From: Verrucomicrobiota bacterium
Lineage (GTDB): Bacteria > Verrucomicrobiota > Verrucomicrobiia > Limisphaerales > DSYF01
Assembly (NCBI GenBank): GCA_025457615.1
Contig: JALOTZ010000016.1
Coordinates: 1-64,000, forward strand
Direction: 5' to 3'
Length of the DNA stretch: 64,000 nt
A model generated the notes under the pieces. That model ran no database searches. It was not told the origin of the DNA and was given only the letters and a program-made list of their open reading frames with translations. Made by a program: the position numbers and the translations under genes. Position 1 is the stretch's first letter. The number at the start of each line of letters is the position of its first letter. This document shows positions 6,942-58,300 of this stretch, piece after piece.

Positions 6942-7963
6942 CGCAGAAAGATCCCGTTCAGCTTCTCCGTGGTTGAGTCCAGGTCCGCCAACAAGCGCTC
7001 CCACTCCGGCTGCAACACCGGAGAACCGGGCGATGGCATTTCGGGGTACTGAATGGCGCCCGCCGCCACCAAGCGTTCAACGGTTTCGGGGCGCTGCAGA
7101 TAATCGGCCAGCGCCTGGGCCTGTTTCGGGTGAGGCGCACCGCGCACAATCCCGACGGTGTTGGGAATGAACAACCGGGTCTCGGGCAGCTCGGGTCCGC
7201 GCGCCACCGGCAATCCCTCCCGCTGGGCGGCCAGCACGTCATCGGTGTCGGTCAAGCCCAGCCAGGCTTCGCCGCGCGCAACCCGTTTCACGACGGTGGA
7301 ATTGCCATCCAGAATCCTGGCCTCGTTCGCCACCAGGGCGCGACACCACTGTTCCCAGAGCGCCTCGCCCCAATGCAGTCGCAGGACATGAAAATGCGTC
7401 GCCGTGGTGCCGAACTGCGGGAAAGCCATCGCCACCCGCCCGCGCCAGACGGCGTTGGTCAATTCGAGCAGGGAACTCGGGGCTGGCTGGCGGTCCGGCC
7501 CCACCCGGTTGGTGTTGATCACCAGGCAACGGGTCCGGGCGCCGAACGACCTGAAACCATTGGTTTCCTGCCAGACATTGAACGCCGCGAGCTGGCGGGT
7601 GCGCATTTCCTCGTTGCCCCAGAAGACATCGCACTGCGGATGATCGCGTTCGGCGAGGAGCCGGTTGGCCAGGCCGACCGTCTTGACCGCCTCACTGTCA
7701 TAGACGGCTTTGACGCGGATGCCGGTCTCGGTCTCGAACTTGTGGAGGATGGGTTCGGCATAGGTCTGGTCCTGGGCGCAATAGAGGACGACCCGGCCGG
7801 CCTTCCTGTCCTTGAGCCAGGCGATTCCGGGCAACAGCGCGGTAGCCAGGACGGCCACCAGCGCGATCAGGAGCGGAATGCCGATGATCAGAAACCACTG
7901 AGCCTCGACCTCCTGCCGGCCGAACTCGTCCTGGGGCCAGTTTCTTTTCGACTCTTTGCTCAT
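6938..7963 (-). CDS. Membrane-anchored extracellular solute-binding protein (iron/FbpA-like)
   Basis: 341 residues. After a charged N-terminus, residues about 24-46 form a membrane anchor (WFLIIGIPLLIALVAVLATAL), not a cleaved signal peptide. The rest matches ABC substrate-binding proteins of the iron(III)/thiamine class: VVLYCAQDQTYAEPIL, then FETETGIRVKAVYDSEA, CDVFWGNEE, and GRVAMAFPQFGTTATH. It would deliver a ligand, possibly a ferric complex (inference), to the permease encoded by the next gene. Its start overlaps the PIN-toxin stop by ATGA and its stop overlaps the permease start by ATGA, so all are probably translated as one chain. Confidence 0.85.
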   Translation of the reverse strand: MSKESKRNWPQDEFGRQEVEAQWFLIIGIPLLIALVAVLATALLPGIAWLKDRKAGRVVLYCAQDQTYAEPILHKFETETGIRVKAVYDSEAVKTVGLANRLLAERDHPQCDVFWGNEEMRTRQLAAFNVWQETNGFRSFGARTRCLVINTNRVGPDRQPAPSSLLELTNAVWRGRVAMAFPQFGTTATHFHVLRLHWGEALWEQWCRALVANEARILDGNSTVVKRVARGEAWLGLTDTDDVLAAQREGLPVARGPELPETRLFIPNTVGIVRGAPHPKQAQALADYLQRPETVERLVAAGAIQYPEMPSPGSPVLQPEWERLLADLDSTTEKLNGIFLR

Positions 7964-8427
7964 AATCCTCCCTCCGCTGCTTGTAGAAGATCCCGACGCA
8001 ATCCCGGAGCCACGTGGAATCCGGCTTCGGTCTGGAGACGATCCAGGAGGGGGCGGACGGCTGGGATGATTCCTTTGTGCTTTGCCGCGAGCAGGATTCC
8101 GAGGATGCCGATGATGTGGAGTCTTTCTTGGCGGGCAATCGTTCGTCCCAACACTTCATCCATCAAGAGCCAATCAGCGCCCAGTTCGACCGCCAAAGCG
8201 ATCGCTTCCGCCTCCCCGAGATCAAGCTCACGCATCAATCGCTTCAACCGTCCCGATTGAGCCGGCGCTCGGACGACAAGAAAGGGAGGCAAGGCGGAAT
8301 GGAACCGATCGAGCTCAGCACGAACCGCAGGGGGGATGAGCACTTGCCCGAACAAGTCCGGCAGCAAGCTCTCCGCCTGAACCGAGACGAGATTGGAGAT
8401 GCAGGAAGTGTCGCTGACGACGATCAT
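7960..8427 (-). CDS. PIN-domain toxin, DUF3368 family
   Basis: 155 residues. Starts MIVVSDTSCISNL, with the first acidic residue of the PIN active site (Asp 6), a conserved Glu in AVRAELDRF, and the second cluster LGEAEAIALAVELGADWLLMDE giving Glu/Asp residues of the metal site. DUF3368 proteins are predicted ribonuclease toxins paired with UPF0175 antitoxins; the gene just upstream is such an antitoxin and the two overlap by ATGA. The toxin stop in turn overlaps the start of the solute-binding protein gene, an unusual linkage of toxin and transporter. Confidence 0.86.
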   Translation of the reverse strand: MIVVSDTSCISNLVSVQAESLLPDLFGQVLIPPAVRAELDRFHSALPPFLVVRAPAQSGRLKRLMRELDLGEAEAIALAVELGADWLLMDEVLGRTIARQERLHIIGILGILLAAKHKGIIPAVRPLLDRLQTEAGFHVAPGLRRDLLQAAEGGL

Positions 8428-8663
8428 TGACCCGCAATCTCCCTCGCTGCCTGAATGTCTTCAGCAAGGTCCTTGGGGCCGTAATGGATCGGAATCCTGC
8501 GTTGCCCCAACTCGCGTTGGAATTCCGGTATGGATAAGTTGGCCACTTCCGCAGCGGTGCCCATCGTCACTCTCCCGCTGGAATACAATCCTACCGCGAA
8601 ATCCAGGCGCGCCTCTTGAGGCTTCAATGTCGCCTCCACCTTCTCTGGCAGCACAAGATTCAT
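8424..8663 (-). CDS. UPF0175 family antitoxin
   Basis: 79 residues. The pattern EARLDFAVGLYSSGRVTMGTAAEVANLSIPEFQRELGQRRIPIHYGPKDLAEDI is characteristic of UPF0175 (described here in pieces: LDFAVGLYSSGRVTMGTAAE, then ANLSIPEFQRELGQRRIP). The central helices act as a DNA-binding/antitoxin domain in this family. It is the first gene of a four-member ATGA-overlapping run (antitoxin, toxin, solute-binding protein, permease-NHL). Type II antitoxins usually repress their own promoter, which would place the transporter under the same control; this is inference. Confidence 0.85.
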   Translation of the reverse strand: MNLVLPEKVEATLKPQEARLDFAVGLYSSGRVTMGTAAEVANLSIPEFQRELGQRRIPIHYGPKDLAEDIQAAREIAGQ

Positions 8664-10654: not shown

Positions 10655-10690
10655 CGAGGATGGAGGATGGAGGATAGAGGATGGACGTCA
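10655..10690. repeat. GGATGGAGGAT word repeat (left flank of four-helix gene)
   Basis: The run GGATGGAGGATGGAGGATAG (about 10660-10679) and following GAGGATGG copies lie just 3' of the four-helix-bundle gene. The complementary form (CTATCCTCTATTCTCCATGC, about 11089-11108) lies at its 5' side, so the gene is bracketed by inverted word repeats. Confidence 0.6.
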
Positions 10691-11080
10691 TGAGTGGCTT
10701 TTGGATTTTGGACAGAGAGTATCTGCCCGGTCCATCATGCGCTGCAGCATCGCCCCGATGGACTGCCAGGCGGAGTCGAATTCTCGATGCATGCCAGGCT
10801 CGATGTAGCCGCATTCCAGGGCGTGATCCAACCAAGCCTGTGTTTCCATCGTTTCCCCAAGTGCCTCATTGATCTTGCTCACAAATGCGGCTTGATAGCG
10901 TCGGCGAGCCCACGCTTCGGCGAGCATACCGTTTACCGCCCGGGAGGAGCGGCGAATCTGATCTGTCAGCGAAAATCGTTCATCTGCCGGAAAGGCCCGC
11001 GTGGTCACAAAAATTCTGCGGGCTTCGACTCTTGCCGCCTGGTACACCTTCAACTCTCTGAAGCTCCGAATCGCTGCCAT
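10688..11080 (-). CDS. Four-helix-bundle protein (23S rRNA-IVP type)
   Basis: 130 residues, starting MAAIRSFRELKVYQAARVEA, the standard opening of the family, followed by FPADERFSLTDQIRRSSRAV and helix-forming segments AFVSKINEALGETMETQAWLDHAL and YIEPGMHREFDSAWQSIGAMLQRM (given in pieces). It differs from the copy at 783-1163, so it is not a recent duplicate. It interrupts the DUF58 to BatA gene order and is bracketed by GGATGGAGGAT-type repeats in inverted orientation. Function in this family is unknown. Confidence 0.88.
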   Translation of the reverse strand: MAAIRSFRELKVYQAARVEARRIFVTTRAFPADERFSLTDQIRRSSRAVNGMLAEAWARRRYQAAFVSKINEALGETMETQAWLDHALECGYIEPGMHREFDSAWQSIGAMLQRMMDRADTLCPKSKSHS

Positions 11081-11126: not shown

Positions 11127-12068
11127 TTACCCCACCACCTCCGCTCTCCTGAGTTGCTTCAGGATGAGCTCGCCCAGGTCCATGTCCGACCGGGCCAGGA
11201 AGTAATGAATGCCGCGGCTCTGACAGAATTCCCGGAGCCGGGCGCAAAAGTTCTGCACGGTCTGCTGATAGGCCTTAAGGCGATACTTGCCGAAGGTGAC
11301 CTCGCGGGAATCCCCGCTCTCGGCATCGACCAGCCGGAGATCCCCGAAGGTCGTGGGCGCCAGCTCCTCGGGGGACAGGATGTGGACGACATTCACCTGG
11401 AAGCCGCGCCCGACCAGCGTGTTCAGCCCCGCCTCGTAACCTTCGGGGTCCAGCAGGTCGCTCAAGACCACCGCCACGCCGGCCTGACGCGATTCGATCG
11501 CGGCGCGACGCAGGGATTGGTTGAGGCTGGCCGCACCGCCCGCCGTGAGCGCCGCCAGGCTTTGAAAGAACTGCGAGGCGGATTTCCTGCCGCGCACGGA
11601 ACGCAGGGCATTGTGAATGGCGGATGGCGGATGGCGGATTGCGGATTGGGCACCTTCCGCATTCTGCAATCTGCCTCCTGCACTTGGAAACGGGATCACG
11701 CTCACGCGGTCGAATCCGCACAGGGCGATGTAGCCGAGAGCGGCGGCCACCTGGCGGGCGAAATCGAACTTGGGCGGCTCGCCGAAGGTCATGCTCTCGC
11801 TGGCGTCGAGGAAGAGGCGCACCGGCAGCTCGCGCTCCTCCTCGTAGAGCTTGAGGAACAGGCGCTCGAGCCGGCCGTAGAGGTTCCAATCGAGATAGCG
11901 AAAGTCGTCCCCCGCCACATAATTGCGGTAATCGGCAAACTCGACGGATTGGCCACGCGCCCGGCTCCGGCGCTCGCCGCGCGCCGAGCTCTTGGACCGT
12001 CGCGCCGCCAGCAACTGGAGCTGTTCCAGCCGGCGCAGCAGGTCGGGGTTGAGCAGGGCGTTGGACAC
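11127..12068 (-). CDS. DUF58 domain protein (MoxR-associated VWA-like)
   Basis: 313 residues from a GTG start at 12068, two bases after the stop of the nucleotidyltransferase gene. The longer open frame upstream overlaps that gene and is rejected. The DUF58 signature is clear: GQSVEFADYRNYVAGDDFR, then YLDWNLYGRLERLFLK (residues 39-73), then FLDASESM (87-93) like a MIDAS, and VVLSDLLDPEGY. Residues about 133-153 (GRLQNAEGAQSAIRHPPSAI) have no place in the family and are encoded by dispersed repeat words (11610-11674) inserted in frame. DUF58 proteins function with MoxR ATPases; the MoxR gene lies about 2 kb upstream, separated by accessory modules. Confidence 0.88.
   Translation of the reverse strand: MSNALLNPDLLRRLEQLQLLAARRSKSSARGERRSRARGQSVEFADYRNYVAGDDFRYLDWNLYGRLERLFLKLYEEERELPVRLFLDASESMTFGEPPKFDFARQVAAALGYIALCGFDRVSVIPFPSAGGRLQNAEGAQSAIRHPPSAIHNALRSVRGRKSASQFFQSLAALTAGGAASLNQSLRRAAIESRQAGVAVVLSDLLDPEGYEAGLNTLVGRGFQVNVVHILSPEELAPTTFGDLRLVDAESGDSREVTFGKYRLKAYQQTVQNFCARLREFCQSRGIHYFLARSDMDLGELILKQLRRAEVVG
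11610..11674. repeat. Dispersed word repeat inserted in frame in DUF58 gene
   Basis: The stretch GGCGGATGGCGGATTGCGGA (about 11625-11644) followed by TTCTGCAATCTGCCTCCTGC (about 11661-11680) belongs to the repeat families also found at 4386-4515 and 8741-8788. It adds about 20 codons to DUF58 without breaking the frame. Confidence 0.65.
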
Positions 12069-12070
12069 AG

Positions 12071-12823
12071 TCAGGATTTCGTGGACGCGTGACGCAGGCG
12101 TTCCAACTCCAATTTCAAGGGCTGCCAGTAGGCGCGGTCCGCCTCGCGTTCCTCGCGCTCTTCCTCCTGGAACGCGGCTTCCAGTTCCCCGGTCTGGCCG
12201 GACAGCGCGAGGCTGATCAAGGCGCGCTGGGGAACGAGCTCGGATGCCAACCGCGTTGCTGAAGCCGCCGCTTCCACCAGCAACGCCGCCGTCCGCAACT
12301 CCAGCAGCCAAAAACGCCGGCGCTCCGGCGTCGGTTCCGTGCGGTGCTGCAGGTAGTGGGCCTCCAGGAGCCGTTGAAGCATGGGCCAATCCTTGCCGCG
12401 CTGCGTCTTCTTCGCCTTGACCAGGTCGGGCAGCGAAAGCAGTTCGTAGCGCGTGCCGTCCGTGTCCGTCACGCTGGTGCGCCGTTCCCACAGGTGTTCA
12501 AATCGGTCCACACCGCGAAGCTGGGACATCACATCCACCCGCATTTCTGCCGCCTCGGGATGGTGACAACGGAAATGCACGGCGTGGCCGCGTTGGAGGT
12601 AGTCGGGGGAGAGGGGTGGGACGGCGATGCGCTCCGCTTGGAGTTCCCGCAGGGCTTGGTCCAGACGGCGCAGGTTCTCGGCGTCGGCCAGGATCAGCAG
12701 GTCGGTATCCCGGCTAAACTCCGCCGCGCCGTAGAACACGCAGGCCTGACCGCCCATCAGCAGGGCACGGACCCGGCAGGCGGCCATCGTAGAAAGGACT
12801 TTCTGTATCCGGCTCGGTATCAA
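12071..12823 (-). CDS. Nucleotidyltransferase-fold protein
   Basis: About 250 residues. The preferred start is TTG 12823, preceded by GGAGGA at suitable spacing; ATG starts at 12871 or 12787 are alternatives. The NTase core motif is MGGQACVFYGAAEFSRDTDL, with paired Asp-x-Asp-like acidic residues and the later MRVDVMSQLRG. DLVKAKKTQRGKDWPMLQRLLEAHY is typical of this nucleotidyltransferase subfamily, which is often found with mobile or toxin-type loci. A helical C-terminal part is Glu/Arg-rich. It overlaps the short gene upstream and ends two bases before the DUF58 start. The substrate is unknown; an AbiEii-like or minimal-NTase toxin role is only an inference. Confidence 0.72.
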   Translation of the reverse strand: MIPSRIQKVLSTMAACRVRALLMGGQACVFYGAAEFSRDTDLLILADAENLRRLDQALRELQAERIAVPPLSPDYLQRGHAVHFRCHHPEAAEMRVDVMSQLRGVDRFEHLWERRTSVTDTDGTRYELLSLPDLVKAKKTQRGKDWPMLQRLLEAHYLQHRTEPTPERRRFWLLELRTAALLVEAAASATRLASELVPQRALISLALSGQTGELEAAFQEEEREEREADRAYWQPLKLELERLRHASTKS

Positions 12824-12944
12824 GAGTTCCTCCGATGGCCAGGTAATGCGCCCACAGCTCGCCGCTGGCATGCCAGCGTTCGAGCGGCGTCAGGCGATAC
12901 CAGTCGGCCCACTCGCCGTCCACGATGTCTTCCGGTCGAACCAC
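12714..12944 (-). CDS. Small hypothetical protein preceding the nucleotidyltransferase
   Basis: 76 residues from a GTG at 12944. The segment WADWYRLTPLERWHASGELW, then AHYLAIGGTLDTEPDTESPF and a C-terminus GRSGLRVLRRGGV, looks like a conserved small protein that accompanies this NTase type; I recall the pattern but cannot name a function. It overlaps the NTase gene by about 110 bases in another frame, which suggests coupled translation. The two probably form one mobile module. Confidence 0.6.
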   Translation of the reverse strand: MVRPEDIVDGEWADWYRLTPLERWHASGELWAHYLAIGGTLDTEPDTESPFYDGRLPGPCPADGRSGLRVLRRGGV

Positions 12945-13001
12945 AAGCCAAGTTGAAACACCCCGATCGCCGAGGCAAGCGCAAGGTGGCGATGGCGCGC
13001 G

Positions 13002-13068
13002 CGGCGAACAGTGGTTGGAGCTGTTCCAGCCGGCGCAGCAGGTCGGGGGTGAGCAGGGCGTTGGGCAT
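13002..13068 (-). pseudogene. Truncated duplicate of the DUF58 gene 5' end
   Basis: Reading on the minus strand from ATG 13068 gives MPNALLTPDLLRRLEQLQ, against MSNALLNPDLLRRLEQLQ in the complete DUF58 gene at 12068. About 53 bases are nearly identical, then similarity is lost. The remnant starts two bases after the stop of the TIR-like gene, exactly as the full DUF58 starts two bases after the NTase stop. The NTase module therefore sits between a truncated and a complete copy of the DUF58 start. Confidence 0.8.
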
Positions 13069-13070
13069 GG

Positions 13071-13688
13071 CTAACCGTTGTCCACCAGCCAGGTGCGGAT
13101 GACCCAAGTGTAATCGTTGAAGGTCAACTCGCCGGGATCGAGGCGCAGCCTCTGGCACAAGGCGGGGAAGTCGAGTCGGAATCGCTGGTACCGCTCGGCA
13201 ATGACCCGGCTGGAGGGCAGAGGGCGGCGTGGCTCCTCGTCGCGCAGCCAGTCGCGCACGGCCTGGATGAGCAGCACGGGGTTGTCGTCGTGGGCCTTGA
13301 TGTCCTGGCCCGCAATGTCGGACAGGTATTGCTGAAAGCGATATCGTTCGCGTTCCAGGATCAGGGTGGATTTGCGCCGTTGCCGGCGGTCTCCGAACCG
13401 TTTGGCGCCCAGGAACAGGCCCAACTCGAAGGGCATGTTGGAGCGCGGAAGGCGCGATGCCTTGTCCAGCTCGGTGCGAGAGATGTCATGCACCCCAAAG
13501 GCGCAGTCAGCAATGATGCGGGTGAGTTTTTCGACCCGAACATGCCCGCCGTCGGAGGTTTCCAGCGCGCACCGCGGCACGAACGCACAATCGGTCACGC
13601 AGAAAACCAACGCCTCGAACAAGGGCTTGTAGGCGTCGTCGAAGGGAACGTTGAGGAATACGGCCTTAGCTGGCGGGCGACGAGACAT
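13071..13688 (-). CDS. TIR/deoxyribosyltransferase-like protein of unknown function
   Basis: 205 residues. The order of motifs resembles nucleoside 2-deoxyribosyltransferase/TIR-like folds: an N-terminal strand AVFLNVPFDDAYKPLFEALV, then RIIADCAFGVHDISRTELD, and SNMPFELGLFLGAKRFGD. In such folds the Glu of FELG is the catalytic residue for N-glycosidic bond cleavage. A middle strand LILERERYRFQQYLSDIAGQ and a helical C-terminal region ending DYTWVIRTWL follow. I recognise it as a recurrent hypothetical family but no function is known. It is downstream of, and overlaps by 23 bases, a 56-residue ORF. A role as an NAD- or nucleotide-consuming effector is inference. Confidence 0.7.
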   Translation of the reverse strand: MSRRPPAKAVFLNVPFDDAYKPLFEALVFCVTDCAFVPRCALETSDGGHVRVEKLTRIIADCAFGVHDISRTELDKASRLPRSNMPFELGLFLGAKRFGDRRQRRKSTLILERERYRFQQYLSDIAGQDIKAHDDNPVLLIQAVRDWLRDEEPRRPLPSSRVIAERYQRFRLDFPALCQRLRLDPGELTFNDYTWVIRTWLVDNG

Positions 13689-13836
13689 GCGTGAGCTTTC
13701 GTTCGCGTTTGATTTCGCGCAGCCACCTCATCGCCTCGTCCAACTGCCGGAGGGTAAAACTGTCCGGTCTCGCCGCCGGGCGCGGCAACTGGCGCCGGGC
13801 CTTTGGATCCCTTCCGTTGCTTTCCGTCAGTTTCAT
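13666..13836 (-). CDS. Small basic protein (56 aa) upstream of the TIR-like gene
   Basis: ATG 13836 to TAA 13666. The sequence has a basic, Pro-rich N-terminal part (about residues 9-24) and an amphipathic helix DSFTLRQLDEAMRWLREIKR (25-44). It overlaps the downstream TIR-like gene by 23 bases, so the two are probably co-translated. It begins four bases after the stop of the HAD-like remnant. Its size, charge and overlap resemble an antitoxin or accessory partner, but this is inference from context only. Confidence 0.6.
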   Translation of the reverse strand: MKLTESNGRDPKARRQLPRPAARPDSFTLRQLDEAMRWLREIKRERKLTHVSSPAS

Positions 13837-14056: not shown

Positions 14057-15058
14057 TCACACCGTCACCGCCTGCGCGTCCCGGGGCACGTCCTGGAGAA
14101 TCTGCGCGATGATCTGGTCGGTGACAATCCCCTCGGCCTCGGCCTCGAAGTTCAGGATCAGGCGGTGGCGGAGGGCGGGATAGGCCACGGCTTGGAGGTC
14201 GTCGAAACTCACATTGAACCGGCCCTGGGCCAACGCGCGCACCTTGCCGCCCAGCAGGAGCGTTTGCGCGCCGCGCGGACTGCTGCCAAACCGCAGGTAT
14301 TGAGTGGCGATGGGCGCGGCGGTCTCGGTCTTGGGATGCGTGGCCAGGACGAGTCGGACCGCGTAATCCTGCACGTGCGACGCCACCGGCACTTCGCGGA
14401 CCAGTTTCATGAGGTCCACGAGGTGCTGGCGTTCGAGCACCTTGTCCACCTGCACCCGGGTGCCGGCGGTGGTGCGGTTGAGCACCTCGCTCAACTCGGC
14501 CGCGTTCGGATAGCCCACGAGCACCTTGAAGAAGAACCGGTCGAGCTGCGCCTCGGGCAACGGGTAGGTGCCTTCCTGATCAATCGGGTTCTGCGTGGCC
14601 ATGACGAAGAACGGTTCCGTGAGCCGCCGAATCTGGCCGCCGGCGGTCACCTGGTGTTCCTGCATCGCCTCGAGCAACGCCGACTGCGTCTTGGGCGTGG
14701 CGCGATTGATTTCATCGGCCAGGATCAGGTGGGCGAAGATCGGGCCGTGCTGGAACTGGAACTCGCGCCGTCCGCCGGGGGATTCCATGACGATATTGGT
14801 GCCCAGAATGTCGGCGGGCATGAGGTCGGGCGTGAACTGGATGCGGTTGAACGGCATGTCGAGCGCCTCGCCCAGCGTGCGCACCAGCAGGGTCTTGCCG
14901 AGCCCCGGCACGCCCTCGAGGAGCACGTGGCCGCCGGCAAACAGCGCCGTCAGCGTGCTGTCCACGATTGCCTCCTGGCCGACGATCACGCGTCCGATCT
15001 CGTCGCGCAGGCGGTGGTAGGCATCGCGGAAGGTCTGGATCTGTTGTTCGACTTGCAT
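14057..15058 (-). CDS. MoxR-family AAA+ ATPase
   Basis: 333 residues. Walker A is GVPGLGKT (49-56), Walker B lies in LILADEINRATPKTQSALLEAMQE (described in part), with an arginine-finger region and the C-terminal lid typical of MoxR (RGAQTLLLGGKVRALAQGR). MoxR ATPases act as chaperones for VWA/DUF58 partners, which are encoded downstream (DUF58 at 12068, BatA-like at 10638, large VWA at 4383). It heads the cluster on the minus strand. Confidence 0.93.
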   Translation of the reverse strand: MQVEQQIQTFRDAYHRLRDEIGRVIVGQEAIVDSTLTALFAGGHVLLEGVPGLGKTLLVRTLGEALDMPFNRIQFTPDLMPADILGTNIVMESPGGRREFQFQHGPIFAHLILADEINRATPKTQSALLEAMQEHQVTAGGQIRRLTEPFFVMATQNPIDQEGTYPLPEAQLDRFFFKVLVGYPNAAELSEVLNRTTAGTRVQVDKVLERQHLVDLMKLVREVPVASHVQDYAVRLVLATHPKTETAAPIATQYLRFGSSPRGAQTLLLGGKVRALAQGRFNVSFDDLQAVAYPALRHRLILNFEAEAEGIVTDQIIAQILQDVPRDAQAVTV

Positions 15059-57430: not shown

Positions 57431-57524
57431 AAACCCATGACTGGCCTGCCGAGTCGTAGCTGGGAGCGCTGGAGTGTGCGGACACGCTGAGCCCGCCTTC
57501 GTCCTGCGGACTACGGCGCGGCAG
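57431..57524. repeat. 94-bp direct repeat, copy 1
   Basis: Identical to 57824-57917 except one base. It begins AAACCCATGACTGGCCTGCC and ends TACGGCGCGGCAG. The two copies flank the GIY-YIG gene. Downstream, GCTGCGCTCCGAGCGAAGAC words occur in inverted form after the second copy. Confidence 0.88.
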
Positions 57525-57585: not shown

Positions 57586-57831
57586 TCAGAGTCGCTGGCG
57601 CGCAAAGGCCCGGCCTGAGGCGCTCTTCAAGTATCGCTCGAAGTCCATCGCCCTCTGTTCATCGGTAAACGCAATGGCGGTCTTGATGCGCCACGGGCGA
57701 TACTTGCTCGTATGCGGCACGCTGCCTTCGTTGTGCTTGAGCAGGCGCGCCTTCAGATCCCCGGTGCGGCCCACGTAGTAGTGTTGCCCGTCCCCTTCGC
57801 TTTCCAGGATGTAAACGTAATGAAAACCCAT
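57586..57831 (-). CDS. GIY-YIG endonuclease domain protein
   Basis: 81 residues. GIY-YIG motif YVYILESEGDGQHYYVGRTG and DLKARLLKHNEG are typical, with YLKSASGRAFARQ at the end. Small stand-alone GIY-YIG proteins are common in accessory regions. The ATG start (57829-57831) is formed by the first bases of the direct repeat copy 2 on the complementary strand. Confidence 0.9.
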   Translation of the reverse strand: MGFHYVYILESEGDGQHYYVGRTGDLKARLLKHNEGSVPHTSKYRPWRIKTAIAFTDEQRAMDFERYLKSASGRAFARQRL

Positions 57832-57917
57832 GACTGGCCTGCCGAGTCGTAGCTGGGAGCGCTGGAGTGTGCGGACGCGCTGAGCCCGCCTTCGTCCTGC
57901 GGACTACGGCGCGGCAG
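57824..57917. repeat. 94-bp direct repeat, copy 2
   Basis: Same sequence as 57431-57524. It overlaps the 5' end of the GIY-YIG gene and supplies its start codon. It is followed within 30 bases by the tmRNA 3' end. Confidence 0.88.
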
Positions 57918-57949: not shown

Positions 57950-58300
57950 TGGTGGAGGCGGGGGGAGTTGAACCCCCGTCCCTGAGCCGAGAACCAGCCG
58001 CGACTACATGCTTAGCCCGCAGAAGAGTTCGGCCGCCGGATAACCTGCAGGCGCGAATCCGGCCGCCCAGTCCGCATGAAATGTTTTCAGGCCGCCACGC
58101 GCGGTCTCCGCGTCAGCCCTAACCTGCTGTGGCGTTCATCCGACATAGCAGGTGTCTGCCGGTGAACGTCGTGGCACTAGGCCGCGAGTGCTAATTCTTC
58201 GTTAGCAGTTATGTTTTGATGCGATGATTAACGAGGCCAACGCATCGTCCTCGGCATGCCGCCTCTGGCGCACTTCCCAGGTCGAAACCAGTACGCCCCC
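57950..58300 (-). ncRNA. ssrA: tmRNA (ssrA), tag ANEELALAA
   Basis: On the minus strand the 5' end GGGGGCG pairs with CGCCTCC near the 3' end, followed by ACCA. Conserved ACTGGTTTCGACCTGG and GGCATGCCGAGG mark the tRNA-like 5' half. The open reading frame GCT AAC GAA GAA TTA GCA CTC GCG GCC TAG encodes the tag ANEELALAA. The T arm is GGGGGTTCAACTCCCCC. It rescues stalled ribosomes with SmpB. Confidence 0.93.

Follow-up and report, generated by a model that had tools for sequence, protein, structure and literature searches.

How does a small pair of genes that carries no transposase come to stand between two copies of the start of one host gene? The question is raised by a stretch of 64,000 nucleotides (nt) from a bacterium of the Verrucomicrobiota (positions 1 to 64,000 of contig JALOTZ010000016.1, assembly GCA_025457615.1; here, the window). 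The junction between its MoxR-type ATPase gene and its DUF58 gene, called the slot below, holds an accessory gene (p205), a truncated DUF58 start (the stub) and a two-gene cassette ending in a predicted nucleotidyltransferase (NTase); the complete DUF58 gene follows. One answer, to which we give a probability of about two in three, is that the NTase cassette was inserted into the DUF58 gene of a MoxR-p205-DUF58 operon, with long duplication of the target. An initial annotation of this DNA had proposed that the module entered by recombination at the DUF58 start and left a partial duplication; that proposal is supported by the context of p205 in genome G062, by copies of host-gene ends beside the cassette elsewhere and by a site in genome G224.

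The duplicated start is directly observed. A repeat search found one such direct repeat, of 52 nt: positions 12016-12067 and 13016-13067 agree at 50 of 52 bases (96%), with a start-to-start spacing of 1000, and the pair stands out in a self-BLAST of the window (expect value, E, 5e-17; BLAST E overall about 1e-17 to 1e-20). This bears out the near-identity over about 53 bases that had been noticed at the outset, as well as the placement of both starts two bases after the stop of an accessory gene: the complete DUF58 gene begins with GTG at 12068, behind the NTase stop (TGA, 12073-12071), and the stub with ATG at 13068, behind the p205 stop (TAG, 13073-13071). Homology between stub and gene is clear to DUF58 codon 17-18 (certain only to 18); beyond that, a weaker match that includes an indel of one base may carry it to codon 22-24, at about position 12998. 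The elements of the region all lie on the minus strand, in the order MoxR, a short open reading frame (ORF), a 56-amino-acid (aa) ORF, p205, stub, nts, NTase and complete DUF58:

14057 to 15058, minus strand: MoxR-type AAA ATPase gene, left neighbour of the slot (Pfam AAA_3, E = 7e-63)
13666 to 13836, minus strand: 56-aa ORF overlapping the p205 start, read from its translation; a similar reading precedes p205 in G062
13071 to 13688, minus strand: p205, accessory gene; a 76% identical homologue lies directly before DUF58 in G062
13016 to 13068, minus strand: truncated DUF58 start (stub), that is, one copy of the 52-nt repeat plus the first base of its own ATG
12714 to 12944, minus strand: nts, 76 aa, first cassette gene; at most cassette loci it is conserved in front of the NTase and overlaps it
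12071 to 12871, minus strand: NTase, second cassette gene; start codon not exact, stop at the right end of the insert
12016 to 12068, minus strand: downstream repeat copy, the functional start of DUF58, from the repeat comparison
11127 to 12068, minus strand: complete DUF58 gene (Pfam DUF58, E = 4e-29), from its GTG start at 12068 to its end at 11127

The likeness of the two copies extends to silent positions. Fifteen of 16 third codon positions agree between them, against a median of 6 of 13 in comparisons with the DUF58 heads of other genomes; the match is thus not a matter of amino-acid constraint alone. The initial annotation had named shared motif constraint as what might undo its reading, and on this comparison the constraint explanation is already refuted by the silent-site test. 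The next closest to the stub among 98 DUF58 heads reaches 78% identity (over a slightly different 51-nt stretch). Together with the silent-site agreement, this means that one copy derives from the other, or both from alleles of strains that are very closely related. The longest exact match between the copies is 33 nt and they are not identical, which makes duplication by the assembly unlikely. A hairpin or structure like a repetitive extragenic palindrome (REP) was considered at the junction and set aside, as the DNA folds no better than its shuffles (z 0.14); a search for dispersed copies of the junction gave nothing beyond short matches.

Which of the two starts is the old one? The native contexts of both halves can be observed directly. 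The p205 homologue of G062 directly precedes an intact DUF58 gene; the stub behind p205 therefore sits where the native DUF58 start sits. An NTase directly precedes DUF58, in the same slot, in G258 and G261. Two cassettes, each of which holds the same position elsewhere, are thus stacked in the window, and the stub is the seam between them. Homologues of p205 at other places showed no host-gene duplications, just dispersed-looking repeats at two of them. The 56-aa ORF is probably the partner of p205; a TIR-like similarity of p205 itself is very weak, below all cut-offs.

The cassette is far from confined to this slot. The NTase turned up in 73 of the 320 genomes surveyed in the order, and the cassette was compared across 68 loci; 27 of the first 30 have neither MoxR nor DUF58 nearby. 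The initial annotation had held that finding the module at unrelated sites with no DUF58 remnant would tell against its idea. Taken literally, such sites exist, but their remnants are of other genes. The cassette adjoins the copied end of a different host gene at about eight or nine loci besides the window, a scar seen directly in each (host genes, here and at the transposase loci below, were recognised from translated sequence, with no family search): tails of ftsY (63 nt, 95%; in another genome 322 nt, 91%), of thiC (135 nt, 93%; 76 nt, 70%), of gcvP (172 nt, 88%) and of an unidentified gene (37 nt, 84%), and heads of an oxidoreductase gene (60 nt, 98%) and a cytidylyltransferase gene (53 nt, 94%). 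Repeat lengths, 52 nt in the window and 37-322 nt at the other cassette loci, are much greater than those of usual target site duplications. The second copy usually begins between -5 and +15 nt from the NTase stop, so that the right end of the insert is the NTase stop codon itself.

Of 66 cassette loci, 16 have a flanking repeat at E<1e-6 (a hand count that includes a few dispersed repeats), as against none of 84 random single genes (p=6e-7); among mismatched flank pairs, 1 of 148 gave a repeat at E<1e-3. Repeats at L110, L117, L122, L250, L268, L275, L276 and L278 were excluded from the host-gene-end copies because they were of low complexity or dispersed, had a mislocated start, or showed no recognisable gene end. 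A promoter proposed before stand-alone NTase copies (TTTACA...TATCC) was rejected: at several loci thiC ends in that very string (GAG GTT TAC AGC CAA GCG TAA), and part of the supposed promoter looks like a carried relic of the thiC tail, an ancestry that other copies would share. The window's own genome also holds a degenerate, partial second NTase cassette, broken within the NTase (L149; G000 contig C7:33335-33555).

One of the other insertions can be viewed together with its pre-insertion context, which is observed directly. The host gene in G224 is an oxidoreductase gene, with the cassette in its head; 18 of 49 genomes of that genus contain a match to the gene. In G222 and G240, where the gene is intact, the 516-527 base pairs (bp) leading up to it match, at 83-84%, what precedes the truncated copy in G224, and neither has a cassette match at that site; the original start is therefore the truncated one, to which the cassette and the second copy were added. 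This comparison is the clearest support for the idea of the initial annotation, though at another gene.

The slot itself attracts varied inserts. A survey of 80 loci fetched by DUF58 and of the 320 genomes found MoxR and DUF58 mostly less than about 110 bp apart; by hand count, 24 sampled slots have an insert of at least 400 bp, and these inserts are unrelated to each other (NTase pair, p205, a PIN module, an IS200-type transposase, Uma2, a sulfatase, a phosphotransferase and small unknown genes). Copies of the DUF58 head stand in five slots: the window, L010, L018 (two copies), L020 and L028. Not all of these slots are necessarily independent, as related lineages are the source of L010, L018 and L020; outside the window the breaks fall at about DUF58 codons 22-25 (L010, L018, L020, L028). 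The mirror image occurs in L021 and L053, with a copy of the MoxR 3' end directly after a PIN module, beginning at the same MoxR codon in both. The MoxR copies (L021:5785-5900, L053:5095-5212) are still open ORFs of 38 codons, their ATG arising at the junction; the differences between copy and gene in L053 look nearly all silent, and gene conversion or selection may act on them. By their sequences, the Y1 transposases of the slot (L015, L018, L020, L028) form what appears to be a slot-specific lineage, 73-100% identical to one another, other Y1 genes of the same genomes being at 35-50%.

Transposase loci outside the slot can have the same anatomy. About nine of about 90 IS200-type transposase loci in the order have host-gene pieces on both sides, four of them in the DUF58 slot. 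At L165 (G101:C46) an intact GIY-YIG/helicase-type gene is preceded by four repeats of its own head, interspersed with REP-like palindromes and a Y1 transposase, a picture that looks like repeated insertion at one site; further loci carry a copied HsdM tail (L167), HsdR-type head (L203), HsdS-type segment (L217) or methylase segment of 255 nt (L194). As the anatomy is the same around the NTase pair, the PIN module and IS200-type transposases, the phenomenon is not bound to one cargo. The IS200/IS605 family is described as lacking large target duplications (PMC2817692).

Several observations weigh against insertion at this particular locus. In G258 and G261 the NTase stands before DUF58 with no stub between them. 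One clade (support 99/93) unites the in-slot NTases of G258, G261 and the window, which fits slot-to-slot transfer rather than fresh insertion. No empty site was found in the window's own genus, where MoxR in the only other genome lies at the end of a contig, with a different ORF after it. In favour of insertion, on the other hand, the window DUF58 clusters with its own family (98/92), apart from those of other cassette bearers. In the MoxR tree, the resolution of which is too poor to place the left flank, the window MoxR lies away from that of family member G002, with weak support.

Transfer of this kind could do without a true target duplication. DNA from a close relative carrying NTase-DUF58 would have recombined into a p205-DUF58 recipient, by homologous exchange in DUF58 on one side and illegitimate joining at about DUF58 codon 20 on the other, and the two copies would be the donor and recipient alleles. 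Homology-facilitated illegitimate recombination is known from E. coli as well as from naturally competent bacteria (PMC3240628); with one homologous and one non-homologous join, it can leave two versions of a locus side by side, separated by a partial copy, a layout like that of the window. The in-slot NTases are monophyletic while their hosts are not, and other slots show mixed alleles: the L020 stub is 96% identical to the DUF58 heads of relatives and 90% to its own, and the MoxR-tail copy in L021 is nearer to the L015 and L020 tails than to its own. However, the window copies, equally private to the window lineage in the comparison of DUF58 heads, are far nearer each other than to any other head, so that the donor must be very close; and the process requires a donor with the cassette beside the same gene, which no sampled locus provides for the insertion gene of G224. 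We regard this exchange as possible, though unlikely.

The order of arrival might also be reversed: p205 with a DUF58 start, and perhaps MoxR, would have come in upstream of an older NTase-DUF58 pair, and the stub would be the ragged end of the incoming DNA. The stubless loci of G258 and G261 and the separation of the window MoxR from that of G002 agree with this; but in all tested parallels the cassette is the insert, and at the G224 site the truncated head is the original, which makes this reading very improbable. Chance, shared protein-motif constraint or artefact as the source of the match, for which one could cite the conserved N-terminal peptide LL-PELLRRLEQ and the draft state of the genome (96 contigs), can be dismissed in view of the matching silent positions, the E values, the parallels in other genomes and the non-identity of the copies.

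Insertion with target duplication would have run as follows. In a MoxR-p205-DUF58 operon, the two-gene cassette (12071-12944) would have entered DUF58 within its first 20 or so codons, with duplication of 52 bp of target or more; the original start would have stayed as the stub behind p205, and the second copy, 2 bp after the NTase stop, would keep DUF58 whole and presumably couple it translationally to the cassette. First arrivals may have joined through a long staggered break that was filled in, or through template switching during replication; later spread may have been by homologous transfer between strains, in keeping with the single clade of in-slot NTases and with the alleles seen in L020 and L021; either route may have made the window seam; the survivors would be those insertions that left both operon genes whole. 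We infer both this order of events in the window genome and the identity of the duplicated segment with the target itself. Thus the observation is confirmed and insertion supported.

A bolder proposition is that the NTase pair is a self-spreading cassette without a transposase, with its own stop as its right end, for which a process not yet described copies about 40-320 bp of a gene end and regenerates the host gene, often directly behind the cassette stop, the recurrent break near DUF58 codons 22-25 at other loci marking a preferred target. This we consider quite unlikely as a whole.

The NTase had no clear match in family-model searches; its predicted structure (pLDDT, a per-residue confidence score, 90) has MenT1 and H. 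pylori JHP933 as closest folds (Foldseek E=1e-5 to MenT1), the sequence profile alone giving only E=0.42 against MenT1. A GG..RD.D motif (GGQACVFYG...FSRD.D) is invariant in 20 NTase sequences; predicted fold and motif together agree with what defines NTase toxins (nucleotidyltransferase fold with a GS/GG...D-x-D type motif). The cassette resembles MenT1/AbiEii-type toxins in predicted fold, motif and two-gene layout with a small protein in front; it differs from the closest fold match in its low identity (17-20%), a TM-score of 0.47 by query length and long extra C-terminal helices. The pair is plausibly a putative toxin-antitoxin-like selfish unit. No restriction or methylase model matched the cargo.

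Passages of two papers (PMC1643837 and PMC3031569, citing Nobusato et al. 2000, Gene 259:99) describe insertion with long target duplication, in which a small selfish-type unit in the chromosome is flanked by long direct target repeats of variable length; the cargo there is restriction-modification genes, mainly in a comparison of two Helicobacter pylori strains. The window event, its insert bracketed by long direct repeats, is filed as the same kind, though not as a restriction-modification insertion: the cargo here is an NTase pair, a PIN module or IS200-type transposases, in Verrucomicrobiota and repeatedly at one operon junction. REPtrons (PMC2817692, PMC3733652) resemble several duplicated slots (L010, L018, L020, L028) in joining Y1 transposase genes to palindromic repeats, unlike the window cassette, which lacks a transposase. 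Neither ORFs nor Pfam revealed a Y1 transposase gene between the window copies. With the integrative and conjugative element (ICE) SXT in prfC, and with similar elements, a copied gene end at the boundary of the insert restores the target gene. Unlike ICE SXT, the cassette has no integrase gene, and no common attachment sequence was noticed between different target genes.

Other accessory genes and repeats occur in the window. A toxin-antitoxin-like UPF0175-DUF3368 pair and a gene for a 23S rRNA-intervening-sequence protein lie in the same operon region (7960-8663 / 10688-11080), the latter between DUF58 and a BatA-like gene. In the region 800-1462, a four-helix-bundle-like ORF that begins at about 795 has a truncated second copy of its start behind it (about 1384-1462), surrounded by short AACGTTCAACGCTCAACG-type repeats, which looks like another gene-start duplication. 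A 94-nt direct repeat (57431-57524 and 57824-57917, 99% identical) brackets a small GIY-YIG-like ORF (57586-57831, minus strand) that directly adjoins the transfer-messenger RNA gene (57950-58300); the pair is perhaps a mobile unit or a dispersed repeat.

It is unclear how toxin-antitoxin-like pairs move without a transposase; here one cassette family scars many host genes across one order, with a pre-insertion site to compare. A pattern noticed for Helicobacter restriction-modification genes thereby becomes measurable in repeat length, break position, target preference and direction. The scars also account for the strange truncated starts and tails of genes that these genomes contain, which annotators are warned against calling genes.
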